From a virus, in the IMG/VR virus record IMGVR_UViG_3300047297_000200, positions 1 to 32,056 of that record: a stretch of DNA of 32,056 bases; one strand, written 5' to 3'. The notes below the pieces were generated by a model that saw only the letters and a program-made list of their open reading frames with translations, had not been told where the DNA came from and made no database searches. The position numbers and the translations under genes were made by a program. Positions 9,482 through 11,162 of the stretch are shown one piece after another (position 1 is the first letter of the stretch; each line of letters starts with the position of its first letter).

Positions 9482-10438
9482 ATGGCAATCAAACTACGCG
9501 GCGAAACCTACTGGCTGGACGTCATGATCAAGGGCAAGCGCGTGCGCGAGTCCTTGAAGACGTCCGACAAGAAGCAGGCCCAGGAGCTGCACGACATCCG
9601 CCGCGCCGAGCTGTGGCGCACTGGCGCCCTCAAGGAAAAGCCCAAGAAGACCTGGAACGACGCCACCGACAAGTGGAAGGTCGAGAAGGCCGGCAAGCGC
9701 TCCATCTCTGACGACGAGGACAAGATCACCTTCCTCAAGCCAAAGCTGGGCGCCCTGCTGCTGACCGACATCGACCGCGACATGATCGAGGAGGCTCTCC
9801 CCGAGGGCGTCAAGCCGGCCACCCGCAACCGCTACCGCGCCCTGATCCGGGCCATCTTCCGCGCCGCCCAGATCGACTGGCAGTGGATCGACACCATCCC
9901 AGGCTTTCGCAAGGAGGAGGAACCCACCCGCCGCGTCGCATATTTGACACGCGAGCAGGCCGAGGCCGTGATCTCAAACCTACCGGAAAAGTACCGGTGT
10001 CCAGTCCGTTTCGCTTTGCTCACCGGGTTGAGAAAAGCCAACGTCTTCGGCCTGCGCTGGGAGAACGTGAACCTCGAGACGGGCATGGTGATCGTGCACG
10101 CGGATGAGGCCAAGGCCGGCGAGCGCATCCTGGTGCCGCTCAACACCAAGGCCAAGGAAATGCTCTCAGCCATGCCAGAACCGCGTCAGGGCCTTGTATT
10201 TCAATGCCCTGTGCGGATCTCTCCAACCACCTGGTCAAACGCCACCAAGCGCGCTGGCGTGCCCTGGTGCCGCTTCCATGACCTGCGCCACACCTGGGCC
10301 AGCTGGCATGCCATGGCCGGCACGCCGATGTCGGTGCTCCAGGAGCTAGGCGGCTGGCATTCAGCCGAGATGGTCAGGAAGTACGCGCACCTGTCGCCTG
10401 AGCACCTGGCCGCGGCTGCCGAGAAGGTGACGTTCTGA
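9482..10438 (+). CDS. int: Tyrosine integrase
   Basis: 318 residues. The N-terminus (MAIKLRGETYWLDV) is an arm-binding beta-sheet domain, and residues 55-130 form the core-binding SAM-like domain. The catalytic domain has R184 (TGLRKANV), K211 (DEAKAGER), H266-x-x-R269 (FHDLRH), H293 (GGWHS) and nucleophile Y301 (RKYAHL), so all active-site residues are present. It integrates and excises the phage at attP, which begins 60 bases downstream. It has its own promoter at 9421-9449. The length and intactness indicate a functional temperate phage. Confidence 0.95.
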   Translation: MAIKLRGETYWLDVMIKGKRVRESLKTSDKKQAQELHDIRRAELWRTGALKEKPKKTWNDATDKWKVEKAGKRSISDDEDKITFLKPKLGALLLTDIDRDMIEEALPEGVKPATRNRYRALIRAIFRAAQIDWQWIDTIPGFRKEEEPTRRVAYLTREQAEAVISNLPEKYRCPVRFALLTGLRKANVFGLRWENVNLETGMVIVHADEAKAGERILVPLNTKAKEMLSAMPEPRQGLVFQCPVRISPTTWSNATKRAGVPWCRFHDLRHTWASWHAMAGTPMSVLQELGGWHSAEMVRKYAHLSPEHLAAAAEKVTF

Positions 10439-10498
10439 TTGTCACGTTTTTGGCACAACCGAGGTTTTTGATGCTGAGAGAAAAGTGCGTTTTGAGAG

Positions 10499-10543
10499 TG
10501 GAGGCGGGGGTCGGAATCGAACCGGCGTACACGGATTTGCAGG
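10499..10543 (-). other. attP: attP core: 3' half of tRNA-Cys (GCA)
   Basis: Read on the minus strand, 10543-10499 gives the 3' half of a tRNA: the anticodon-loop sequence CTGCAAA, the 3' anticodon stem TCCGT, a T-loop TTCGATT, the acceptor end CCCCGCC, then T and CCA. Anticodon GCA and a discriminator U identify tRNA-Cys. The bases preceding the loop do not pair with TCCGT, so the 5' half is absent and this is not a working tRNA. Temperate phages carry such copies to rebuild the target tRNA on integration. The T-stem has one non-pairing position (C:A). The site is intact between phage modules, so this is attP, not attL or attR. Confidence 0.85.
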
Positions 10544-10553
10544 GCGAACCGAC

Positions 10554-10580
10554 AAAAAAGTGCCCTGAAAATCAGGGCAC
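10554..10580 (-). terminator. Intrinsic terminator of the lysis/late operon
   Basis: GTGCCCTGA (10560-10568) and TCAGGGCAC (10572-10580) form a perfect 9-base-pair stem with an AAA loop. On the minus strand the stem is followed at once by TTTTTT (10559-10554). It lies 54 bases beyond the lysozyme stop and stops late transcription from entering attP and the integrase gene. Confidence 0.9.
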
Positions 10581-10634
10581 AAGGACTAACCAATGGCAAC
10601 TGTGGCACAAGTCCACGGCACAATTTTGGCACAG

Positions 10635-11162
10635 TCATTCATCGTCTAATTCCAGGTCAGACAGGAACAAAGCCTTCTCCTTTTCCCGCCTACGCTTGAG
10701 GCCCGGCAATTCCTTGCCGCCCCCGCGAGTCCACTGCATGAACGCCTGGGCGGCCTCCTTCCACTCCTGGCGCCCGATCTTCATCCGAATAGTGGAACGC
10801 TGAAAGTTTCCCAGCCCGGCATTGAACGCAAAGCTGGTACACGCGTCGAAAGCGCCTTGATTGCCATGCAGATTGGGAGCAAGTCGAAGAACACCGCGTT
10901 CAAAACTAGCGATGTCACTTGCGAATAGCGCATCGATCTCTTGTTGACTCCAAACACGGCTGTCCTCCGGTCTCAGTGGGTATTCCTTGCGGATAACGGG
11001 GCTGTGGATCTCCTTGACCCGCACCATCGGCAGCCTGATCTGCTCCTGGTACAGCACATGGCCCCAGCCGATCGTCCAGATGTGCGCGGGGCACAGGTAG
11101 GGGCGGTTCCTGCACCCTTCAAATTCGTGCATGAGGGCCGCGCCAGCCTGGCTCAATTTCAC
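10635..11162 (-). CDS. Phage lysozyme (GH24 endolysin)
   Basis: 175 residues of the T4/P22 lysozyme family, which hydrolyse the glycan strands of peptidoglycan. The active-site motif reads E15 (HEFEGC), C24 (PYLCPA) and T30 (WTIGWGH), i.e. E-8-C-5-T, with Cys in place of the more common Asp. FNAGLGNF and a Trp-rich C-terminal region are typical of the family. There is no signal peptide or SAR anchor, so release should depend on the holin. The ATG overlaps the holin stop (ATGA at 11159-11162). Confidence 0.9.
   Translation of the reverse strand: MKLSQAGAALMHEFEGCRNRPYLCPAHIWTIGWGHVLYQEQIRLPMVRVKEIHSPVIRKEYPLRPEDSRVWSQQEIDALFASDIASFERGVLRLAPNLHGNQGAFDACTSFAFNAGLGNFQRSTIRMKIGRQEWKEAAQAFMQWTRGGGKELPGLKRRREKEKALFLSDLELDDE

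Follow-up and report, generated by a model that had tools for sequence, protein, structure and literature searches.

Phage attachment sites (attP) used by tyrosine integrases reportedly lie in tRNA genes, with crossover in the anticodon loop. The site analyzed here, in a 32,056-nt stretch of DNA (the window) that is a linear metagenomic record, resembles this classic arrangement in having an integrase beside attP, a 44-nt 3' tRNA half, paired arm sites and, in silico, a rebuilt tRNA; we found no essential difference, the tRNA-Cys target and the metagenomic integrase lineage adding a member to the class. Common cores of 30-45 bp are typical (Guerrero-Bustamante and Hatfull 2024, PMC10865867). 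The same paper treats tRNA-dependent lysogeny, in which a phage tRNA replaces the one destroyed by integration, and leaves open both its frequency outside actinobacteriophages and the evolutionary order of events; replacement of tRNA-Leu has been reported in Sinorhizobium (PMC11476347). The attP of the window is confirmed and ordinary in kind, and its relatives are of greater interest, bearing on the open question of how phages go from rebuilding a host tRNA to supplying their own.

The attP core and the predicted rebuilding of tRNA-Cys

Read on the minus strand, the core (CTGCAAATCCGTGTACGCCGGTTCGATTCCGACCCCCGCCTCCA) passes in order through an anticodon loop with GCA, the 3' anticodon stem, the variable region, the T-arm, the 3' acceptor strand, U73 and CCA (Table 1). 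The first-pass annotation had recognized here the 3' half of a tRNA-Cys with no matching 5' half, and both points were borne out: a pattern search first gave 43/43 matches in 4 of 399 genomes of one order, which upon extraction of the intact tRNA-Cys genes (G627, G710, G683 and G787) became 44/44 from C32 to CCA, while ARAGORN reported no complete tRNA in the window and the sequence from 10543 onwards showed no tRNA continuation. The end of the core had been placed at 10543, one base too far, as identity to the host genes ends at 10542 and tRNA base 31 is already different. Rfam covariance models did not recognize the half tRNA, as expected of a fragment. Among 13 related attP sites, mean majority identity was 99.6% over the 3' half (37 nt) and 100% over the 7-bp loop, but fell to 51% over the 40 nt towards the integrase; together with the 44-nt identity, this conservation excludes a chance match. 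That the loop is invariant in the Cys group, with host identity stopping exactly at the loop end, suggests that it is likely the overlap region for strand exchange.

Table 1. Features of the attP region, in coordinates of the window.
Feature	Position	Strand	Evidence
attP core: 3' part of tRNA-Cys(GCA), C32 to CCA, 44 nt	10499..10542	-	Matches intact host tRNA-Cys genes at 44/44 nt
Anticodon loop (TTTGCAG on + strand), predicted to be the 7-bp overlap in which strands are exchanged	10536..10542	.	Invariant in Cys group; tRNA-His counterpart ATCACAA in 25/25 mini-cores
Tyrosine integrase gene, 318 aa, convergent with half tRNA	9482..10438	+	PHROG 1 integrase, E 4.8e-66; PF00589, E 2.4e-23; profile matches HP1 integrase 1aih
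Left arm-type sites GTCACGTTTTTGGCACA, putative integrase binding sites	10441..10457	+	Sequence; counterpart in relatives
Right arm-type sites GGCACAAGTCCACGGCACAATTTTGGCACAG, putative	10604..10634	+	Starts +71, +84, +95 from core; spacing common to Cys, Ser, Asn and His attP
Terminator-like hairpin then T run, between core and right arm sites	10560..10580	-	Terminator scan; similar hairpin in many relatives
Endolysin gene, phage DNA beyond attP	10635..11162	-	PHROG 7 endolysin, E 5.6e-46

An unpaired T-stem position had been noted, with the suggestion that integration might leave a slightly altered tRNA. The unpaired position is real (C50.A64), and it was present in all 44 native tRNA-Cys genes examined, which had been gathered by similarity with up to 3 mismatches allowed. 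In silico fusion of the G627 tRNA-Cys 5' part to the 44 nt of the window reproduced the native gene, letter for letter. Since the unpaired position is native and the hybrid equals the G627 gene, the altered tRNA is ruled out, and integration would leave the tRNA of such a host as it was.

Arrangement of attP and competing explanations

The integrase stop lies 60 nt from the CCA end at 10499, the very gap claimed for it. GGCACA/GTCACG-type repeats flank the core on both sides, and the distance from core to right arm (+71, +83/84 and +94/95) recurs in attP sites with tRNA-Cys, tRNA-Ser(CGA), tRNA-Asn and tRNA-His parts, a constancy to be expected of integrase arm-type sites, as which we interpret these repeats from their sequence. 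The hairpin between the core and the right arm sites faces transcripts coming from the endolysin side.

The attP model rests on the 44-nt identity, an integrase next to the core, flanking sites at fixed spacing and a rebuilt tRNA identical to the native one, and from these we infer the binding, the crossover position and integration in a real host. We are nearly certain that this is a temperate phage's attP, at which the integrase would exchange strands with a host tRNA-Cys(GCA) gene in the anticodon loop and thereby rebuild the tRNA. In the proposed mechanism, the integrase would bind the arm-type sites on both sides of the core as well as core-type sites at the anticodon stem, and strand exchange between attP and the host gene would take place within the 7-bp loop. 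The host 5' half would then join the phage-borne 3' half to yield an unchanged tRNA-Cys at the integrase end, with the host's own 3' half displaced to the opposite end of the integrated phage. From sequence alone, the attP thus indicates which gene an uncultured phage would integrate into, and links the phage to hosts with the exact tRNA-Cys.

The best surviving of the competing explanations is that the half tRNA is an attR, i.e., the host 3' half that an integrated prophage has displaced, with integrated DNA included in the window. An attR also appears as a lone 3' half, and a prophage should show host DNA on one side of the half tRNA or a complete tRNA beside the integrase. Here, where host DNA should follow the CCA end, we found instead the phage's own integrase, together with arm sites to either side of the half tRNA and the endolysin beyond, and other Cys-type relatives are arranged alike; we therefore regard this explanation as very improbable. 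Because the half tRNA has the integrase on one side and the endolysin of that phage on the other, the first-pass reading of the locus as the unintegrated form of a phage directed at tRNA-Cys(GCA) holds, given the 44/44 identity, the adjacent tyrosine integrase, and phage genes and arm-type sites on both sides of the core.

Less credible still is tRNA-dependent lysogeny in the window phage, whereby integration would destroy tRNA-Cys and a phage tRNA would replace it. Relatives with integrases 60-70% identical do have a complete tRNA-His and a minimal core, but the window, unlike the system described in PMC10865867, has neither a cognate or other complete tRNA nor a short core, its 44 nt rebuilding the tRNA exactly. 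That the half tRNA is a relic, or the source of a tRNA-derived RNA, and no recombination site at all has nothing in its favor beyond the sequence itself, and can virtually be dismissed given the fixed spacing to the arm sites, the other tRNA halves that take the same place in relatives and the sharp conservation confined to the tRNA part.

Host genomes and related prophages

The centre of the search bears a 23S signature that we take to be that of Betaproteobacteria, and the order to which the 399 genomes belong appears to be Burkholderiales. Neither in these genomes nor in smaller family searches (some families being very small and thus a weak negative) did any prophage integrase exceed about 46% identity, and no prophage with a close integrase was found at tRNA-Cys. 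In a phage collection, the nucleotide search gave no match and the protein search gave distant integrases only, and a scan of genome contigs yielded no close relative. Burkholderiales prophages with integrases 41-46% identical to that of the window mostly adjoin a complete tRNA (Ser, Thr, Arg, Lys, Phe, Asn, Leu, Met or His) in the same orientation, as expected of the integrated form. In most of the loci examined, the integrase and the complete, opposite-strand tRNA have the geometry of the window, the gap between integrase stop and tRNA 3' end usually being about 70-130 nt. Of the expectation that host genomes would offer a tRNA-Cys(GCA) with a matching 3' end followed by a related prophage, the exact match was found in four genomes, and the prophage integrases found, 41-46% identical, sit at other tRNAs.

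We also found tRNA-Cys targets that are occupied. In G627, 152 kb separate a complete tRNA-Cys from a displaced 3' half, and G787 has displaced tRNA-Cys 3' halves, then a tRNA-Leu; in both genomes, a PF00589 integrase of another lineage than that of the window adjoins the complete tRNA-Cys. These displaced halves and adjacent integrases indicate that tRNA-Cys, cut at the anticodon loop, is already targeted by other elements, which, like the geometry of the Burkholderiales prophages, favors the attP model. The 152-kb stretch in G627, from the complete tRNA-Cys with its adjacent integrase (L160:9604-11065) to the displaced 3' half (L161:9694-9737), is probably a large genomic island in tRNA-Cys.

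Related loci and the tRNA-His branch

Eighty related loci were taken from viral contigs, and those with a recognizable attP follow the same plan as the window. Integrases 60-95% identical to that of the window are accompanied by 3' halves of tRNA-Cys, tRNA-Ser, tRNA-Asn or tRNA-His at an unvarying distance from the arm sites, and in the integrase tree the window falls within a well-supported tRNA-Cys group, the other groups using Ser, Asn and His. Much of the window is collinear with L052, a locus with a tRNA-His part, at nucleotide identities of about 66-85%, signifying that these are related phages with different targets.

Within the His branch, we distinguished three states. In state (a), only the 3' half is present (L026, L059, L060 and L078). 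State (b) combines the 3' half with a complete tRNA-His between the integrase and the left arm (L046, L052, L053 and L056), the core of L046, L053 and L056, as in L052, giving 35/38 matches when scored against the tRNA-His 3' half. State (c), for which 25 contigs were scored, has a complete tRNA-His and a short core only (L027, L030, L032-L045, L047, L049, L050, L055, L057, L058, L062, L079 and L080). In all 25, the loop ATCACAA is kept with CC[AG]G[AT] on one side, and the 33 nt beyond the stem match the tRNA-His 3' half at 6-12 of 33 positions, near the level of shuffles. The core-to-right-arm distance in state (c) is unchanged from other attP sites, the exact core having been found in 20; five further mini-core contigs have GTATCACAA, and these lie outside the exact-core search and inside the 25-contig loop scoring. 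Among eight distinct phage tRNA-His genes, 100% of 21 pairs are kept, with both-side changes at four pairs, as would be expected of working tRNAs.

Set beside tRNA-dependent lysogeny as described in PMC10865867, relatives such as L032, L042 and L045 have a cognate tRNA-His gene and a core cut down to the anticodon loop with a portion of one stem; state (c) accordingly looks like this kind of lysogeny, providing candidates outside the actinophages. In the four contigs of state (b), a 3' half that would rebuild the tRNA stands together with a complete tRNA-His, a pairing missing from Table 2 of PMC10865867, where no phage has a cognate tRNA as well as a rebuilding core. Our hypothesis is that state (b) may be an intermediate, the tRNA having been gained first and the core shortened later; it stays a hypothesis as the tree fits gain or loss alike. 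The integrases of state (b) are nearly identical to that of L059, and since L046, L052, L053 and L056 differ from L059 and L060, which have the half only, mainly by a whole tRNA-His gene, comparison and experiment can be used to test which step came first. If true, the His-branch series would favor acquisition of the tRNA ahead of core shortening, an order on which PMC10865867 does not decide. No lysogens of state (b) or (c) were seen. On balance, we give an even chance to the larger proposal that one integrase lineage has switched tRNA targets under one attP architecture, with the His branch keeping the steps from a 3' half, to a half plus a whole tRNA-His, to a whole tRNA-His plus a loop core, in phages probably of Betaproteobacteria.

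Other variations on the plan were noted among the related loci. A small ORF of about 250 nt, running from the integrase stop, parts the integrase from attP in L012-L014, L016, L019, L024-L026 and L076, and insertions similar to it are present in L040 and L050. Elsewhere, attP seemingly contains a 5' tRNA half, not a 3' half, being tRNA-Ser(GGA)-like in L065-L067 and L069-L073, where it lies downstream of the integrase, and tRNA-Arg(CCT)-like in L083 and L084; with such an attP, the phage would supply the 5' end of the tRNA and its promoter side.
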